From positions 186,001-250,000 of the forward strand of contig NZ_CP101824.1 in NCBI RefSeq assembly GCF_024498195.1: a stretch of DNA of 64,000 nucleotides. Reading direction: 5' to 3'. The translations under genes were made by a program, and so were the position numbers. Under the pieces are notes generated by a model that did not search any database, was not told the origin of the DNA, and was given only the letters and a program-made list of their open reading frames with translations. Source of the DNA: Halovivax cerinus (lineage in GTDB: Archaea > Halobacteriota > Halobacteria > Halobacteriales > Natrialbaceae). Below are positions 4,604 to 61,416 of the stretch, in pieces (position 1 is the stretch's first letter; the number at the start of each line of letters is the position of its first letter).

Positions 4604-5812
4604 TCACTCCGCGTTCGACTCGTCACCGTCCGAAGCCGGCTCCGCGACGACGTCCTCGAAGGCTCGGAGGATCACGCGTTTCGTGACTGCGCCGCGGGTC
4701 GTCCAGTGAGTCGCGTAGTCGAGCATGTCGTCGTAGATGTCGGGCTTGCAGCCGGCGGCCTTCGGGTGACCGCCGCCGTTGACCAGGTCGGCGACCTCGT
4801 GGCACCGCTGGAAGGCGTCGGTCCCGCGGATCGACGCGCTCCCGGCGGGTTTGACGACGACGGCGGCGTCGGCGCCGGCCTCGCGAAGTCCCTCTGCGAC
4901 TTCGTTCTGTGAGCAGCGGCCGTAGGTGACGCCGACGGTGTAGGGTCCCACCTCGTGGAACTCGGCGCGGTCGATGGCGAACTCGATCATCCGTTCCTTC
5001 TCGACGCGACGTTCGGCGAGGTACGCCACGACCCAGTCGGGCAGGTCGGCGCCGAACTCACGGACGACCTCGACGTACTCGCCGGGATCGGTCCAGTAGG
5101 CGTAGTCCGCGAGGTCGTCGCTGCGGGGATCCTCGCGGATCCAGAGGTCGTGGTCCCGCGTGACCGCGACGAGGTCGGTGTGGCGGTCGTCGAAGTCGTA
5201 GTCGAGCGAGCGGGCGACGACGTCGGCACTGCACTCCTCGTCCGAATCGCCCACCACGAGGTCTGCGCCGGCATCGCGAACGGCCGTCGCGACGGCGTCG
5301 TCCCACTGGTGGTGGTCGTACCAGCGGACCGATTCGGCGACGTTCACCGCGGCGTCGAGTTCGTCGTCCACGTACTCGTACCGATCGGGAGCGAGATCGC
5401 AGACGAAGAGGTCGACACCGGATTTCGCCGCGCCGGCGACGCGACCCAGGGCGTCCTCGACGTCGTGCGGACTCGCCGGGACGAGAACCACGTCGTGCGG
5501 ACCAGGCTCAGGTGCATCGATGGCCTCGGCGGGGGCGTCCGGGTCGGGCGTTTCTGCCGCCCCGGAGTCGTCGCTCGCACCCGGTTCGGGGAGCTCCAGC
5601 ACGTCGTCGTACGCGTCCCGGATCAGTGCGACGCACGCGAGGCCGTCGGCGTCCGGGTCCGCCACGACGACCGCCTCGGCGTCGGCGACGGCGGCTTCGA
5701 TTCGTTCTGACTCCAGGTCTGCCTCGACCTCGTCGGGAAGGAAGAAGCCGGCCCCCGGAAGGAGACTCCGGCGGACCGGGTCGAGATCAGACGTGTCGAA
5801 CAGGTCGTCCAT
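4604..5812 (-). CDS. DHH/DHHA1 family phosphoesterase (RecJ-like)
   Basis: A 402-aa protein. ADPDADGLACVAL at about residues 51-63 gives the metal-binding D-x-D motif, RWYDHHQ at 164-170 is the DHH motif, and NGGGHPKAAGCKP near 355 is the GGGH motif of the DHHA1 domain. An acidic Pro/Ala-rich insert at about 76-105 is typical of haloarchaeal versions. Such proteins hydrolyse single-stranded nucleic acid ends or small nucleotides; which substrate applies here cannot be told. The ATG at 5812 is chosen because the frame upstream (MASRTGG) is not family-like. Confidence 0.85.
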   Translation of the reverse strand: MDDLFDTSDLDPVRRSLLPGAGFFLPDEVEADLESERIEAAVADAEAVVVADPDADGLACVALIRDAYDDVLELPEPGASDDSGAAETPDPDAPAEAIDAPEPGPHDVVLVPASPHDVEDALGRVAGAAKSGVDLFVCDLAPDRYEYVDDELDAAVNVAESVRWYDHHQWDDAVATAVRDAGADLVVGDSDEECSADVVARSLDYDFDDRHTDLVAVTRDHDLWIREDPRSDDLADYAYWTDPGEYVEVVREFGADLPDWVVAYLAERRVEKERMIEFAIDRAEFHEVGPYTVGVTYGRCSQNEVAEGLREAGADAAVVVKPAGSASIRGTDAFQRCHEVADLVNGGGHPKAAGCKPDIYDDMLDYATHWTTRGAVTKRVILRAFEDVVAEPASDGDESNAE

Positions 5813-5919
5813 ACCCCCGGTTCGGGAAGCCACGGGAAGAACCCGCCGGTCTCAACCGCTGGCCCCATAGCCGGCGTCGACCCACCTCCGTGTCCGGACG
5901 GTCGACGGCGTCCGGGTGG

Positions 5920-6381
5920 CTACCTCGTCGCCGTCTCCCCGGAGACGTCCTCTTTCGCCGCGAGCTGACGAACCGTGAGGACCGGGACCGACGAGTTGCG
6001 GACGAGGTGCTCGGCCACGCTCCCGAGCAGCTGGCGGTGCTCGCCGTGGCGGCCGCGAGTCCCCGCCACGATCAGGTCCGCGCCGATCTGGTCGGCGTGT
6101 GCGCGGATCTCGGCCGCTGGTCGCCCCTCCCGAATCGCCGTCGACACCGGTTCGTCGGGGATCTGGCGCTCGAACGAGTCGAGGGACGTCTCGGCCTGCG
6201 ACTCGAGCGCCGCACGATACTCCTCGCGCAACGCCTCCGGCGTGGCGTCCAGTTCACTCGTATCGAGGACCGTGACGGCGTGGAGGTCGGCGTCGAATCG
6301 CTCCGCGACGTCCAGACCCACGTCGATCGCCCGCCGTACGCTCTCGGAGCCGTCCGTCGCGACGAGCACCCGCTCGAACAT
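5920..6381 (-). CDS. Universal stress protein (UspA family)
   Basis: A 153-aa single-domain Usp. It opens with MFERVLVATDGSESVRRAID. The nucleotide-binding loop is at GTRGRHGEHRQLLGSVAEHL (G-2x-G-9x-G-S pattern), so ATP binding is expected, and it ends SVPVLTVR. It is divergent from a second, more degenerate Usp gene at 6499; the 117 bp between them must contain both promoters. By family it is a dimeric cytosolic stress protein. Confidence 0.9.
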   Translation of the reverse strand: MFERVLVATDGSESVRRAIDVGLDVAERFDADLHAVTVLDTSELDATPEALREEYRAALESQAETSLDSFERQIPDEPVSTAIREGRPAAEIRAHADQIGADLIVAGTRGRHGEHRQLLGSVAEHLVRNSSVPVLTVRQLAAKEDVSGETATR

Positions 6382-6498
6382 GGTCGTCGGTTCGCCTCGC
6401 CTCCACATAAGACCTCCCGTCCGACCCGAACGCGGTCGTCCCCCGGCGGTCGGGAACGGAGAGGGACCTTTTTGCCCCCGCCTGACACACCCACCTGC

Positions 6499-6954
6499 AT
6501 GGTCGATAGCGCTGCGCTCTCGGTGGAGACGATCCTCGCCCCCGTCGACGGTAGCGACGCCTCCACGAACGCGGTCGAACACGCCGTCGAACTGGCCGAC
6601 CGCTACGACGCGACCGTCCACGTCCTCTTCGTCCTCGGACGCGAGGTCGTCCTCGGGATGGACGCCGACGCCGTCGCGGAGGACGACGTCGCCCAGAACG
6701 TCCAGACGTACCTCGCAGACGTCAGATCGTACGCCGACGAGCGGGCGATATCGATCACGACGTCGACGGTACACGGCTTCTCACGCGAGCGAAAGACCAC
6801 CCACCCCGGTAGCGTCGTCCTCGACACCGCCGACGACATCGACGCGGATCTCGTCGTCGTTCCACGGCCATCGACCGACGGACCCGCAACCGTCCTCGAA
6901 ACCGTCGCCGAGTACGTCCTCGGCTACGCCAGCCAGCCGGTCCTATCAGTGTAG
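6499..6954 (+). CDS. Universal stress protein, probably not ATP-binding
   Basis: A 151-aa Usp-fold protein: VETILAPVDGSDASTNAVEHAV at the start and a final strand ending SQPVLSV. The middle helix region is present, but the glycine-rich G-2x-G-9x-G-S/T loop is replaced by VPRPSTDGPATVLETVAEYV, so nucleotide binding is probably lost. It is divergent to the canonical Usp at 5920 and convergent with the MBL gene. Its separate role is unknown. Confidence 0.85.
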   Translation: MVDSAALSVETILAPVDGSDASTNAVEHAVELADRYDATVHVLFVLGREVVLGMDADAVAEDDVAQNVQTYLADVRSYADERAISITTSTVHGFSRERKTTHPGSVVLDTADDIDADLVVVPRPSTDGPATVLETVAEYVLGYASQPVLSV

Positions 6955-9163: not shown

Positions 9164-10072
9164 TCAGTCGGCGTCGAGACGGATCGCCATCTCCACGTCG
9201 AAGCGCTCGGTACCGACGGTCTCGAAGCCCACCTTCTCGTAGAGCGAGATGGCCGCACCGTTCCAGCGCTCGACCGTGAGCCAGACGGTTTCGATGCCGA
9301 CCCGCGTCGCCTCTCCGAGGAGGTGAGAGAGGAGCGCCGTTCCCACGCCGGCTCCCTGGTAGTCCTGTAGGACGAATATCGCGAGTTCCCACTCGTACGC
9401 GTCGGGCGCGTCGAGCACCGCCGAATCGTCCGTCTCGGGAACTAGAACGGCGTGGCCGACGTACTCGGCGTCGGTCGTCCCCGTGGCACCGCTTTCGCTT
9501 CTCGCAGTCTCGCCCGTCCCCGTCTCGGCGTCTGTCCCGGCCGTCCCCGTCTCGGCGTCTGTCCCGGCCGTCCCCGTCTCGGCGTCTGTCCCGGCCGTCC
9601 CCGTCTCGGCGTCTGTCACGGCCGTCCCCGTCTCGGCGTCTGTCACGGCCGTCCCCGTCTCGACGTCTGTTCCGTCTGTTCCCGTCTCGACGTCTGTTCC
9701 GCCTGTTCCCGTCTCGACAGTTGTCCCGACCGCTCCCGTCTCGGCGTCCGTGTTGGAAACAGCCGAACCGGCCGAGGTATCATCCGACACGGCCCCAGCA
9801 TCGGTCGAGACGACGGCGACGTTCACCCCGCGGTCGACGAGCGGTTCGAGCCAGGTGCGGATCTGTGCCTCCCCCGTCGGTGGGATCCCCTGCGCGCGAT
9901 CGGCGGGGTGAAACCGTCGGTACATTCGCGTCAGCGCGTCGGTGGTGGACTCCTCGGCCGGAAGCCGTTCGATGGTGAGTTCCCGGCCCTCACGGTCCGT
10001 CATCGTCGCCGGCGGCTCCGGGAACGGACCGGCGGGCTCGTCCGGGTAGCGTCGTGAAGGTTCCATAGTCAT
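9164..10072 (-). CDS. GNAT N-acetyltransferase with internal tandem-repeat insert
   Basis: A 302-aa protein. The first half of a GNAT fold is at residues 30-92 (YRRFHPADRAQGIPPTGEAQ; NVAVVST). An insert at about 93-200 follows, with nine 9-residue units of the type TDAETGTAG. The fold resumes at EYVGHAVLVPET, with acetyl-CoA motif A at 236-247 (QDYQGAGVGTALL) and LYEKVGFETVG. Residues before and after the insert form one normal domain of about 190 aa, so the repeat is probably a surface loop. The ATG overlaps the stop of the upstream Usp gene (ATGA), so the two form an operon. Confidence 0.85.
   Translation of the reverse strand: MTMEPSRRYPDEPAGPFPEPPATMTDREGRELTIERLPAEESTTDALTRMYRRFHPADRAQGIPPTGEAQIRTWLEPLVDRGVNVAVVSTDAGAVSDDTSAGSAVSNTDAETGAVGTTVETGTGGTDVETGTDGTDVETGTAVTDAETGTAVTDAETGTAGTDAETGTAGTDAETGTAGTDAETGTGETARSESGATGTTDAEYVGHAVLVPETDDSAVLDAPDAYEWELAIFVLQDYQGAGVGTALLSHLLGEATRVGIETVWLTVERWNGAAISLYEKVGFETVGTERFDVEMAIRLDAD
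9515..9757. repeat. 27-bp minisatellite inside the GNAT gene (9 copies)
   Basis: Nine 27-bp units, each encoding nine residues in frame. The central copies (about 9515-9620) are nearly identical and the outer ones diverge, as expected if expansion occurs in the middle. Unit length is a multiple of three, so copy-number change would not break the frame. Confidence 0.9.
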
Positions 10073-57528: not shown

Positions 57529-58893
57529 ATGAGCGAACGGTCGATCGAGGAGGACGGCCTGTCGTCCGACGATCGAGCCTATTACGTCATCAGCGACCTC
57601 CACATCGGCGGCGACGAGCAACTCGGGGAGATCGAGTTCGAGCACGAGCTCGTCGCGTTCCTCGAACGGCTGGCGGCCACCGACGAGCCGGTCGAGCTAC
57701 TCATCAACGGCGACGCGTTCGGTCTCTGGGAGTTCACCGAACTCGACGGCGTCGAGAAGTTCGACAGGCTCGAAGCGACCTATCCAGACCTCTTCGCCCA
57801 GTTGCGAGCGACCGGCGAAGAGATCCCGATCACGCTCCTCCCGGGGAACCACGACCACGAACTGGCAGCGTACGACGAGTACGTCGAGCGCTTCGCGGCG
57901 TACAACGTCGACCTCGTTCAGGACCAGTCCATCACCAGACCAGTCGGCGACGGGGTGATCCACTTCGAACACGGCCACCAGCGCGACCCGAACAACCGGA
58001 TCGACGACTGGGGGAATCCACACGCAAAACCACTCGGCTACCACTACAACGCGGAGGTAACCAGTCGAGCGGGACAGCTCTCCGATCGCGGCCGGTTCGA
58101 CTGGCTCTCGGACGTCCAGGCCGTGACGCCGACGGAGTGGCTGCCCCTGTGGCTCCTCTCGAAGTACGTCTACCGGGAGATGAACCCACTCCTCCGGTAC
58201 GCGCTGGTGCCGTTTCTCTTCCTGTTCAACCTCAGTTCCCTCCTGGCGATACTCGTCGGTCTCGACATGGCGGGCGTCTACGCGGTCCCAATCGACGCCG
58301 TCCGATCGTTCCTCGGCGCGTTCGGCCTGGCCGGAACGGCCGCCTACGGCTTCCTCGCGGCGAACGTGGTCGTCGCCGGACTGGCACTGTTGCTCGCCGT
58401 CCCGCTGTACCTGATCCAGCACGACGTCAAACGAACGATCGATCGGTTCGGGCTCTTCGACGCGGAACTCACCGTCGACGCGGAACGGCCGTACGAAGCA
58501 GCGGCCGAGGAGATCTTCGCCGACAGCCCCGAGACGGCGGTCTTCTGCTACGGCCACACCCATCGCCCCGACAGCAAGCGCGTCGCGGGCGGGCTGCTGG
58601 TCAACACGGGGACGTGGCTCAAACGCCTCCACCGCCTCGATGGCGTTACCGGACTGCTCCCGCCGGTCTTCTATCCGACGTACCAGCTCGCTGCCGTCCG
58701 TATCGCGGCCGAGTCGGACGGCATCGCCGTGTCGTTCGAACCCATCGAGAAGCCGACACCAGCGCCCGACGAACTCACCCTGACCGAACGGCTGCTGACC
58801 CTCGGACGCAAACCGAATCCGACGCTCCCGGACCGGAGAGTCGTCGAATCCACCCGGCGACCCACCCCATCGACGCCGGAGCGAGCCGAGTGA
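57529..58893 (+). CDS. Calcineurin-like metallophosphoesterase with TM segments
   Basis: A 454-aa protein. The metal-binding motifs are in order: YVISDLHIGGDE, LLINGDAFGLWE, LLPGNHDHEL, FEHGHQRDP and YGHTHRPD (near residue 345). Two hydrophobic segments (about 225-245, FLFLFNLSSLLAILVGLDMA; 270-300, YGFLAANVVVAGLALLLAVP) interrupt the domain, so it is membrane-bound. The arrangement resembles UDP-2,3-diacylglucosamine hydrolase-like phosphoesterases; substrate unknown. It is divergent to subtilase 2. Confidence 0.88.
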   Translation: MSERSIEEDGLSSDDRAYYVISDLHIGGDEQLGEIEFEHELVAFLERLAATDEPVELLINGDAFGLWEFTELDGVEKFDRLEATYPDLFAQLRATGEEIPITLLPGNHDHELAAYDEYVERFAAYNVDLVQDQSITRPVGDGVIHFEHGHQRDPNNRIDDWGNPHAKPLGYHYNAEVTSRAGQLSDRGRFDWLSDVQAVTPTEWLPLWLLSKYVYREMNPLLRYALVPFLFLFNLSSLLAILVGLDMAGVYAVPIDAVRSFLGAFGLAGTAAYGFLAANVVVAGLALLLAVPLYLIQHDVKRTIDRFGLFDAELTVDAERPYEAAAEEIFADSPETAVFCYGHTHRPDSKRVAGGLLVNTGTWLKRLHRLDGVTGLLPPVFYPTYQLAAVRIAAESDGIAVSFEPIEKPTPAPDELTLTERLLTLGRKPNPTLPDRRVVESTRRPTPSTPERAE

Positions 58894-58989: not shown

Positions 58990-60375
58990 TCAACACGTCC
59001 CGATCTTCGTCCAGCGCCGGCTCCGCTCGGTCGGTTCCTGCCCCCAGACGAACCAGTCGGCCTCCCAGAGCGCGCCGTCGTGGACGACTCGATCTCCGGG
59101 ATGATACAGCGTCGACGAATCGAACGGGGACGTCCCGGCACACCGCCCGTCGTCACCGAGACGGGCAGCGACGCGACCGGCTCCACCCTTCTCCGGTTCG
59201 AGCCCCACGTCGACGGCGGTCTCGCGGAGCCGTGTCCGCCGTTCAGATGGCGACTCGTCCGGGTGGACCGACGCGTGCAGGGCCGCGACCCCGACCGCAG
59301 CCCCGCAGGCCATCGACGTCCCCGATCGCCGCTCGTACTCGCGGCCGGGCACCGGCGCGAGGACGTCGACGCCGGGTGCGGCGACGTCGATCTCCGGGCC
59401 GTAGTTCGAGAATGATGCGAACTCGTCGTCGGCGTCGACCGCCGAGACCGCCACACAGTTGTCGAACGCTGCGGGGTACGCGACGTCGCCGCCGTCGCCA
59501 CCGGCGGCCGCGATCGGGAGCGCCCCGGCGTCGACGGCGTGATCGATGGCGTCACGAAGCGTCTCGCTCTCTCCACCACCACCGAGCGGGAGTGCGATCA
59601 GGTCGGCACCCTCGTCGGCCGACCACTGAATCGCGTCGGCGATGTCGGAGAGGGTACCGGTCCCGTTCGAATCCAGCGCACGTGCAGAGAGAACCCGGCA
59701 GTTCGAGAGGCCGGCGATCCCCGCACCGTTTCCCGTCGTCGCCGCGGCGATCCCGGCGACGTGGGTCCCGTGGCTCTCCGCGTCGGTCTCGGGACGCGGA
59801 TCGTCGTCCCCGTCGACGAAATCGCGGCCCTCGTCGCCGGAGAATCGGTCGGCGAGGTCGGGGTGCGTGTAGTCGACACCCTGATCGACGACCGCGATCG
59901 TCACGTCCATCGACCCGAGGGTCGTGTCCCAGGCCGCCGGCGCGTCCACCTGCTGCGGGACGGTCTGCTCGTCGAACCGCGGGTCGTCGGGGTCGAACGG
60001 GCGTTCGGCCGACCCGGTCGACGCGTCCAAGGCATACAGTGTCTCGTTCGGTTCGGCGTACGCGATATCGGACCGTCGTTCGAGTCGATCCACGACCGAC
60101 GCCATCGACTGGGGCCCGTCGGCGGAGACGTCGACCGAGACGTACCCGAGTACGTCGTTCTCGTGGACGATCGTCGTCCCGTCCGGCAGCGCCGACTCGA
60201 CGGTCCGGCGAACGGACGCGATCGAGGTTCCGTCGCTCGTCCCGACGAGGAGTTCCGTTCCACCTGGCCCCGGACGGTCAGCCGGCGTCGCCGCGCCGAC
60301 CGCACTCGCACAGAGTCCAGCACCGAGCGTTTGTAAGACCGTTCTGCGACCGATCACCGTATTCATATTGGTCAT
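58990..60375 (-). CDS. Subtilase 3 with altered oxyanion hole and chitin-binding-like tail
   Basis: A 461-aa protein from ATG 60375 (60366 also possible). Twin-arginine signal (GRRTVLQTLGAGLCASAVG), I9-like propeptide and S8 domain. D164 ([11 protein letters not shown]), H202 (SHGTHVAG) and S354 (GTSMACG) are kept. The oxyanion-hole Asn is Gly293 (AAAGGDGG instead of AAAGND), and the Pro after GTSMAC is Gly. Catalysis may therefore be weak or lost. There is no PKD or PPC domain. The last 50 residues (YHPGDRVVHDGALWEADWFV then WTKIGTC) form a CBM5/12-type domain with Cys at both ends. Confidence 0.85.
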   Translation of the reverse strand: MTNMNTVIGRRTVLQTLGAGLCASAVGAATPADRPGPGGTELLVGTSDGTSIASVRRTVESALPDGTTIVHENDVLGYVSVDVSADGPQSMASVVDRLERRSDIAYAEPNETLYALDASTGSAERPFDPDDPRFDEQTVPQQVDAPAAWDTTLGSMDVTIAVVDQGVDYTHPDLADRFSGDEGRDFVDGDDDPRPETDAESHGTHVAGIAAATTGNGAGIAGLSNCRVLSARALDSNGTGTLSDIADAIQWSADEGADLIALPLGGGGESETLRDAIDHAVDAGALPIAAAGGDGGDVAYPAAFDNCVAVSAVDADDEFASFSNYGPEIDVAAPGVDVLAPVPGREYERRSGTSMACGAAVGVAALHASVHPDESPSERRTRLRETAVDVGLEPEKGGAGRVAARLGDDGRCAGTSPFDSSTLYHPGDRVVHDGALWEADWFVWGQEPTERSRRWTKIGTC

Positions 60376-60558: not shown

Positions 60559-61416
60559 ATGACCGCCACACCGATTGCGATCTCGGCACTCAGTACGTCG
60601 GCGATCGCTCTCTCGATTATCGACGCCCTCGTCACGGCCCTCAAATTCGCCGTCGCGTTCGGACTCCTCTACGGCATCGGAAAACCGATCGTAACGCGCG
60701 CCGTCCGTGAGAGTCTCACGCGCCGCGGGTACGAACGCGCGATCGTCAGAACCGCGGTCCGCGTCACGAGCGTCGTGGCGGCCGTCGTGGCTGTCGCCCT
60801 GGCGGCGACGGTCGCCGGGTTCGGCGTCGTGCTTTCGGCGTTCGCGATCCTGGGCGGCGCGCTGGCGCTGGCGATCGGCTTCGCCACGCAGGACCTGATC
60901 GCCAACTTCGTCGCCGGCATCTTCATCTTACAGGACAAGCCGTTCACCGTCGGCGACTGGATCAAGTGGGACGACGAGGGCGGCATCGTTCGCGACATCG
61001 ACCTCCGGGTGACGAAGGTCGAGACGTTCGACAACGAACTCGTCACCGTCCCGAACGCAGACCTCGCGAACGCCGCCGTGACGAACCCGACCGCGAACGA
61101 ACGGGTCCGCGTCGGCTACGACTTCGGCATCGGGTACGGCGACGACATCGACCGCGCCAGAGCGTGCATCCTCGAGGCGGCACGGACGGTCGACGGCGTC
61201 CTCGACGAACCCAAACCGGCGGCACCGGTCACCGAATTGGGCGACTCGGCGGTCGTCCTCACCGGTCGCGTCTGGATCGATCCCGACGAAGACAGCCCGA
61301 AGGCCACAGAGTTCGCGTTCGTCGAGGCGGTCAAGAAGCGTTTCGACGAGGAAGACGAGATCGACTTCCCGTACCCCACTACCGAACTCACGGGCGAAGT
61401 CGCCGTCGCGGAGTGA
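60559..61416 (+). CDS. MscS-type mechanosensitive channel
   Basis: A 285-aa protein from ATG 60559. Three TM helices, the last Gly/Ala-rich (SAFAILGGALALAIGFATQD then LIANFVAGIFILQDKPFTVG), are the MscS pore signature. A beta domain (DIDLRVTKVETFDNELVTVP) and an alpha/beta C-terminal cage follow. It releases solutes on osmotic downshock. Other GTG starts lie upstream but give non-family sequence. Confidence 0.92.
   Translation: MTATPIAISALSTSAIALSIIDALVTALKFAVAFGLLYGIGKPIVTRAVRESLTRRGYERAIVRTAVRVTSVVAAVVAVALAATVAGFGVVLSAFAILGGALALAIGFATQDLIANFVAGIFILQDKPFTVGDWIKWDDEGGIVRDIDLRVTKVETFDNELVTVPNADLANAAVTNPTANERVRVGYDFGIGYGDDIDRARACILEAARTVDGVLDEPKPAAPVTELGDSAVVLTGRVWIDPDEDSPKATEFAFVEAVKKRFDEEDEIDFPYPTTELTGEVAVAE

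Follow-up and report, generated by a model that had tools for sequence, protein, structure and literature searches.

The 64,000-nucleotide stretch of Halovivax cerinus DNA analysed here (the window) contains an intact gene, P0001, that is by homology a halolysin-like subtilase. It keeps the full catalytic triad and has lost both the Asn of the oxyanion hole and the Pro that follows the nucleophile motif, each replaced by Gly. Unrelated haloarchaeal copies show the same double loss, which therefore appears to be a functional shift that recurs and not an accident. With a probability of about 0.42, we propose that the product is a triad-keeping weakened subtilase, perhaps self-cleaving, poor on other proteins and mainly a binder. 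An earlier note on this DNA had the residue losses right but treated P0001 alone; the change recurs, always together with loss of the Pro.

P0001 occupies 58990..60375 on the minus strand (the strand of all its features given below), with an ATG start at 60375, a stop at 58990-58992 and a frame of 461 residues free of stops and frameshifts, in a host genome assembled as a single contig of 3.9 Mb (99.91% complete). The product matches PF00082 with an E-value of 1.1e-47 and 163.1 bits (curated cut-off 21.8) and carries Asp, His and Ser in order, with HGTH and GTSMA motifs; homology assigns it to family S8. It is 55-57% identical to both paralogues in the window and to a fourth copy in the same genome. 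Residues 1-30 (60286..60375) hold a twin-Arg motif, GRRTVLQTLGAG, read by eye, whose aligned RR is invariant among the four paralogues. The prodomain at about residues 37-115 (60031..60267) matches PF22148 below its cut-off (E 0.0033, 18.2 bits against 21) and folds confidently in a model of residues 37-405. A 10-residue insertion at the junction between prodomain and catalytic domain (residues 118-127, 59995..60024) corresponds to a gap in the three paralogues. The S8 catalytic domain spans residues 140-404 (59164..59958; PF00082 at 157-390, structural match to 1thm), and the protein ends in a CBM5/12-like tail, Cys412-Cys461 (58993..59142).

The 37-405 model, built from 61 rows, has a mean pLDDT of 91.4. 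Its best structural match is 3whi_A (Z 48.7, rmsd 2.1, 340 residues aligned), an unautoprocessed pro-subtilisin E carrying an inserted segment; thermitase (1thm) superimposes with Z 45.6 and an rmsd of 1.1 over 271 residues. The only stretch with pLDDT below 50 is model residues 82-90 (P0001 118-126), inside the junction insertion. The full-length model is poor (mean pLDDT 57.8) and gives no confident model of the tail.

Textbooks name the oxyanion Asn as the transition-state residue of subtilisins. As the earlier note stated, P0001 keeps all three triad residues, and alignment and codon reads place them at Asp164 (GAT, 59884..59886), His202 (CAC, 59770..59772) and the nucleophile Ser354 (TCG, 59314..59316). 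The DNA likewise confirms the two changes described there: AAAGND has become AAAGGD, with Gly293 (GGC, 59497..59499) at the oxyanion position, and GTSMACP has become GTSMACG, with Gly358 (GGG, 59302..59304) in place of the Pro. Both window paralogues, P0002 and P0003, have Asn (N287, AAC) and Pro (CCG) at these sites. We take these positions as equivalents of BPN' 155 and 225, with 217 and 221 assigned in the same way by analogy, a numbering in keeping with the end offset seen for matches to BPN'. N-to-G and P-to-G each take two base changes, more than one miscalled base could produce; this, with the recurrence in other genomes, rules out sequencing error.

The changes are rare. A set of 156 S8 frames, less four lacking most of the domain, gave 152 domains, and the oxyanion residue is Asn in 150 of them, the exceptions being P0001 and L250. 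None of the 150 comparators lacks the Asn, so that its loss in P0001 is more than chance, and the Pro after the nucleophile motif is present in 149 of them; L250 has Ser there and P0001 has Gly. Gly293 thus sets P0001 apart from standard subtilisins, and its complete triad from triad-loss pseudoproteases. It resembles subtiligase-type enzymes in having a residue other than Pro at 225 (Gly358) and not in its nucleophile, which is Ser354 and not Cys. We propose a grouping of subtilases with Gly at the Asn position, a residue other than Pro after the nucleophile and the triad kept, to which P0001 belongs.

The earlier note had suggested looking among S8 families for other natural N-to-G variants, and these exist. 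Gly occupies the oxyanion position in 10 of 267 domains, P0001 included, where the count covers only rows with all three triad residues aligned and so leaves out one further gene, L271 (see below). Asn and Pro occur together in 249 of these domains, Asn without Pro in eight, neither in 10 and Pro without Asn in none (Fisher p 1e-13, a value that ignores relatedness and is not proof of coupling). Since loss of the Pro alone occurs and Gly at the Asn site is never seen with the Pro, the dependence runs one way.

In a tree of 74 rows, built with three columns omitted, the Gly label takes four changes, and the starred branches force three. A single clade of all 11 Gly-oxyanion genes was tried and rejected (AU p 1.75e-82), and a clade of P0001 with L250 was marginally rejected (p 0.034, for a pair chosen after seeing the tree). 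The 10 genes in the count appear to come from at least two lineages and probably three: two independent events are firm in the sequence comparison and a third is likely. It weighs against the weakened-subtilase reading that the coupling counts related sequences separately and reflects two or three independent events only. L250 lies in a genome of family f3 and has an exact twin in G433, a genome that is an exact repeat of G330; the two are the only Gly-oxyanion genes among those read in seven genomes of their genus.

Searches of wider scope returned few further cases. The pattern AAAGGDGG gave eight sites in seven of 125 family genomes, and the single subtilase among them is P0001. A looser pattern gave 14 sites in 391 class genomes, four of them subtilases with Gly at the Asn position (P0001, L250, L270 and L271); the other 10 comprise four S8-like frames with AAGG elsewhere and six sites without an in-frame feature. 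Since the looser pattern misses AGGG and GTSYA forms (L290, L291), the true number of such genes may be higher. In 381 class genomes a protein search turned up no Gly-oxyanion genes beyond the f6 clade described below; it added 27 further domains in 22 loci, each with both Asn and Pro in place. Among open-access papers on N155G, the Asn155/Pro225 pair and natural Gly variants, we found no description of the coupling, and a subtilase survey (PMC9549277) does not mention the oxyanion in its main text. What appears to be new here, from these comparisons, is the recurrent Asn-Pro double loss; natural replacement of the Asn was already known from PC2. Five Streptomyces S8 genes (L120, L122, L128, L130 and L137) have GTSNST or GTSDST followed by Ala, having lost Pro225 and kept the Asn.

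The f6 clade contains eight intact Gly-oxyanion orthologues (seven of nine g66 genomes and one g40 genome) plus L271; the survey searched 28 genomes and gave more than 100 matches, of which those inside fetched loci were read. All eight have Asp, His, Gly, Ser and Ala at the triad, Asn and Pro sites. In the seven g66 genomes the gene was in every case flanked by normal tandem paralogues. Over the catalytic domain (Nei-Gojobori), seven of the f6 orthologues give a median dN/dS of 0.14 (0.082-0.219, 21 pairs) and seven normal tandem neighbours a median of 0.131 (0.062-0.23, 21 pairs). The f6 clade is under purifying selection, and its members are not pseudogenes. Mean prodomain identity is 71.2% among the Gly-oxyanion copies and 69.4% among the normal copies, and the junction between prodomain and catalytic domain is similar in the two and looks unchanged. 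The g66 loci are L285-L290 and L270/L284; the eight orthologues have N at 261 in 8/8 and V at 206 in 7/8, where normal copies have mostly S and C. L271 (G410:C1, around 545163-545747) also reads Gly at the Asn site and Ala at the Pro site; its upstream part lies in a different frame, and this g40 gene is probably a damaged copy. Two features separate the f6 clade from P0001, whose role may therefore differ: its members lack a CBM5-like tail, and their 217 position holds Leu instead of Arg.

In another reading, which we consider unlikely, P0001 is a duplicate heading for loss, its Asn and Pro having gone under relaxed constraint, and the f6 clade is a separate matter. The branch leading to P0001 is long (0.47), and no orthologue above 62% identity was found in the 125 family genomes or the 391 class genomes. 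P0001 departs from eight columns conserved in at least 95% of comparators, which have a median of 0 departures. Two of the eight, 261 and 263, fall in Ala261-Leu262-Pro263 (59587..59595), where N (147/150), M or L, and S (150/150) are near invariant, a region that we take to be the subtilisin substrate-binding strand. The composition of the catalytic domain has also shifted strongly, with 1.8% N and 1.8% Q against 6-7% and 5-6% in the neighbours, and more D, E, R and A. Against decay stand a frame that is open and stop-free at about 40% divergence, a complete triad and a well-formed, Cys-bounded tail. Both active-site losses match those of a clade under purifying selection, and some comparators with an intact Asn reach six departures of their own.

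The earlier note also described the C terminus as a CBM5/12-like end with flanking Cys that replaces PKD and PPC domains. That description agrees with the profile matches: P0002 and P0003 have both domains (the PPC matches weak and below cut-off), and P0001 has neither and no PPC-like extension. The 50-residue tail matches PF02839 (CBM_5_12) with E 0.014 and 15.8 bits, below the curated 26.2, and we class it as CBM5/12-like only; its best end-to-end PDB match is 6z40_A (E 0.023, residues 1-50, Cys pair aligned). Such tails are not new on haloarchaeal subtilases: among the 155 other S8 frames read, nine carry one. Eight of these are of one type (six with a PKD motif match), and the ninth, L187, has a PKD and two tails. 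The eight are L166, L167 and L170-L175, from other Natrialbaceae, and several of them lie near other CBM5-bearing or GH18-like frames. L187 (G006:C43:34000-46000, 4923-6812) lies between two GH18 genes, a locus that is perhaps a chitin-deproteinising operon. It branches just outside the P0001 clade, and its pairing with P0001 was not rejected (AU p 0.433); the tail may therefore be old in the lineage, with the PKD lost. Of the earlier statement that P0001 gained a tail, the presence of the tail stands and the gain is uncertain, a common origin of P0001 with L187 not being rejected.

The tailed relatives bear on a further reading, in which P0001 is a normally active protease whose oxyanion site accommodates Gly and whose tail targets it to chitinous or polysaccharide-bound substrates. 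The backbone NH and the Thr would stay as oxyanion donors, and other Natrialbaceae do have S8-PKD-CBM5-like proteases encoded next to genes of GH18 or GH18-like type. Yet all nine tailed relatives keep both Asn and Pro, searches of five Halovivax genomes found no GH18 in any, and a published oxyanion-Asn change costs 200-fold or more (PMC5986005); we regard this reading as very improbable. A place for the tail in a chitinase system belonging to the host itself was rejected, since GH18 was absent from those 5/5 genomes and the host genome has no second copy of the tail. Binding through the tail is plausible from its sequence, and the ligand could be foreign chitin, another polysaccharide or an envelope.

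P0001 is an extra gene at its locus. It lies between a metallophosphatase gene (57529..58893, plus strand; PF00149) and an MscS-type channel gene (60559..61416, plus strand; PF00924), on the opposite strand to both, and orthologues of both flanking genes are found in L150 and L154. In two congeners, G004 and G001, the flanking genes are direct neighbours, with about 87 bases between matched ends, so that P0001 is missing at the locus in two of four other Halovivax genomes; the comparison leaves out G002 and G003, whose fetched stretches do not match the two flanking genes. The normal paralogues P0002 (53029..54876, minus strand) and P0003 (55290..57131, minus strand), S8-PKD-PPC-like by profile matches and alignment with Asn and Pro kept, are separated from P0001 by the metallophosphatase gene. 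The idea in the earlier note that P0001 might regulate these neighbours draws its only support from the fact that the related genes lie in tandem. At the corresponding locus of G001, taken to be H. asiaticus (L154, G001:C10:58000-74988), both tandem subtilases are frame-split, at about 6784-6792 and 9327-9329. The two splits fall at an equal place, near P0002 residue 213-219, and could reflect a shared assembly error, a programmed shift or parallel breakage.

We favour the weakened-subtilase reading on the strength of the kept triad and fold, the joint loss of Asn and Pro, the conserved f6 clade and published substitutions, the last as given in the parts of these papers drawn on here. In subtilisin, Asn155-to-Leu leaves Km nearly normal and lowers kcat 200-300-fold (PMC5986005). 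The PC1/3 mutant N309K, an oxyanion Asn-to-Lys change, removes its own propeptide slowly and is inert in trans, and PC2 has a natural Asp at the same position (PMC4182778). In engineered subtilisin, P225A and P225N make the helix bearing residue 221 shorter and displace 221 by 0.5 Å (PMC7921005). By analogy, catalysis in secreted P0001 would be turned down, not switched off. The Ser and the backbone NH remain and would allow a single slow cut freeing the protein's own prodomain, for which the triad would be needed, and without the Asn the turnover of other proteins would be poor. The main job would be binding: a stable groove would hold partner proteases or the ends of peptides, and the Cys-bounded tail would anchor the protein to a chitin-like polysaccharide. 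Loss of the Pro would be the structural partner of the Asn loss, the Ser-bearing helix relaxing beside the emptied oxyanion site. If only the self-cut is needed, the Asn can be dropped while the triad is obligatory, which fits the pattern seen. Of the earlier suggestion of a catalytically poor binder, poor catalysis is thus likely, judging from the kcat loss of Asn155-to-Leu and the inertness in trans of the PC1/3 mutant. Against the weakened-subtilase reading, the 10-residue junction insertion could hinder self-processing, and the missing orthologue, the long branch and the loss of N261 and S263 may point to decay.

P0001 can be compared with several known systems. It shares with the halolysins SptA and HlyR4 a twin-Arg signal, a prodomain, an S8 domain and a two-Cys C-terminal extension (features that are partly general background and partly from abstracts), and it has normal paralogues nearby; it differs from them in having neither the oxyanion Asn nor a Pro following the nucleophile, and in an extension that is CBM5/12-like, not PPC-like. 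The Natrialbaceae S8-PKD-CBM5-like proteases share the S8 domain and the Cys-bounded CBM5/12-like tail, several of them beside chitinase-like genes, and differ in a PKD motif match (7/9) and in their intact Asn and Pro. CspC, CspA and other subtilisin-like pseudoproteases are catalytically altered subtilases too, with non-proteolytic roles as far as the partial sources go. Pseudoproteases of the CspC/CspA type lack some triad residues; P0001 keeps its triad. PC2 and the PC1/3 mutant are S8 enzymes whose oxyanion Asn is changed, naturally or by disease, with the triad intact, but the replacement is Asp or Lys, not Gly, and the excerpted part of PMC4182778 does not mention a change of the Pro. 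The HFX_0892-type halolysin precursor proteins were also considered; the excerpted part of PMC12893001 presents a processed precursor and does not describe it as a subtilase, and no link to P0001 was found.

Engineered ligases bring in a further reading, that P0001 is a rebuilt and still useful enzyme. Its new active site would be made up of the oxyanion hole without its Asn, the helix relaxed by loss of the Pro and, in P0001 and L250, an Arg of the S1' region. Such an enzyme would rely on another donor or catalyse another reaction, for example cleavage of one particular bond or acyl transfer to an amine instead of water. Two sites that touch catalysis change jointly in every case. Arg350 (59326..59328), at the equivalent of BPN' 217, is common only to P0001 and L250; the position is hydrophobic in all 150 comparators, none of which has Arg. 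Indeed, Gly293 and Arg350 are the sole residues identical in the two catalytic domains and absent from all comparators. An Arg four residues before the nucleophile would fit either an S1'-pocket role or the substitute oxyanion donor raised in the earlier note. Residues 217, 222 and 225 line the S1' pocket, and in peptiligase Asn, Asp, Ser, Cys or Gly at 225 raises synthesis over hydrolysis relative to Ala (PMC7921005, in part); the natural residues at 225 here are G, S and A. P0001 is also like subtiligase, peptiligase and omniligase in that Pro225 is replaced (by A, G, S or N in those enzymes), with 217 and 225 shaping S1' (same source). Those enzymes are engineered, however, and combine a Cys221 nucleophile with a kept Asn155, whereas here the Ser is kept and the Asn lost. 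Arg is also missing from the f6 clade, which has Leu at 217, and the excess of shared columns between P0001 and L250 is modest (hypergeometric 0.004) and was sought after the fact. We judge a rebuilt enzyme unlikely. A stronger form of it, which we think highly improbable, is that haloarchaea repeatedly evolved rebuilt subtilases favouring acyl transfer or prodomain-only chemistry, natural counterparts of the peptide ligases, in which the S1' Arg of two lineages would seat an acidic acceptor and the P0001 tail would bind a polysaccharide.

The Gly-oxyanion genes offer a ready set for separating three needs of a protease: self-processing, turnover and binding. The second residue that they always drop, the Pro, is one that protein engineers change to make ligases. 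Side-by-side comparison is possible with the eight conserved orthologues, of which seven have normal copies in tandem on either side. If these proteins are inert in trans, they would show a protease becoming a binding protein with its triad retained; if they are active, they would show oxyanion stabilisation outside the textbook.
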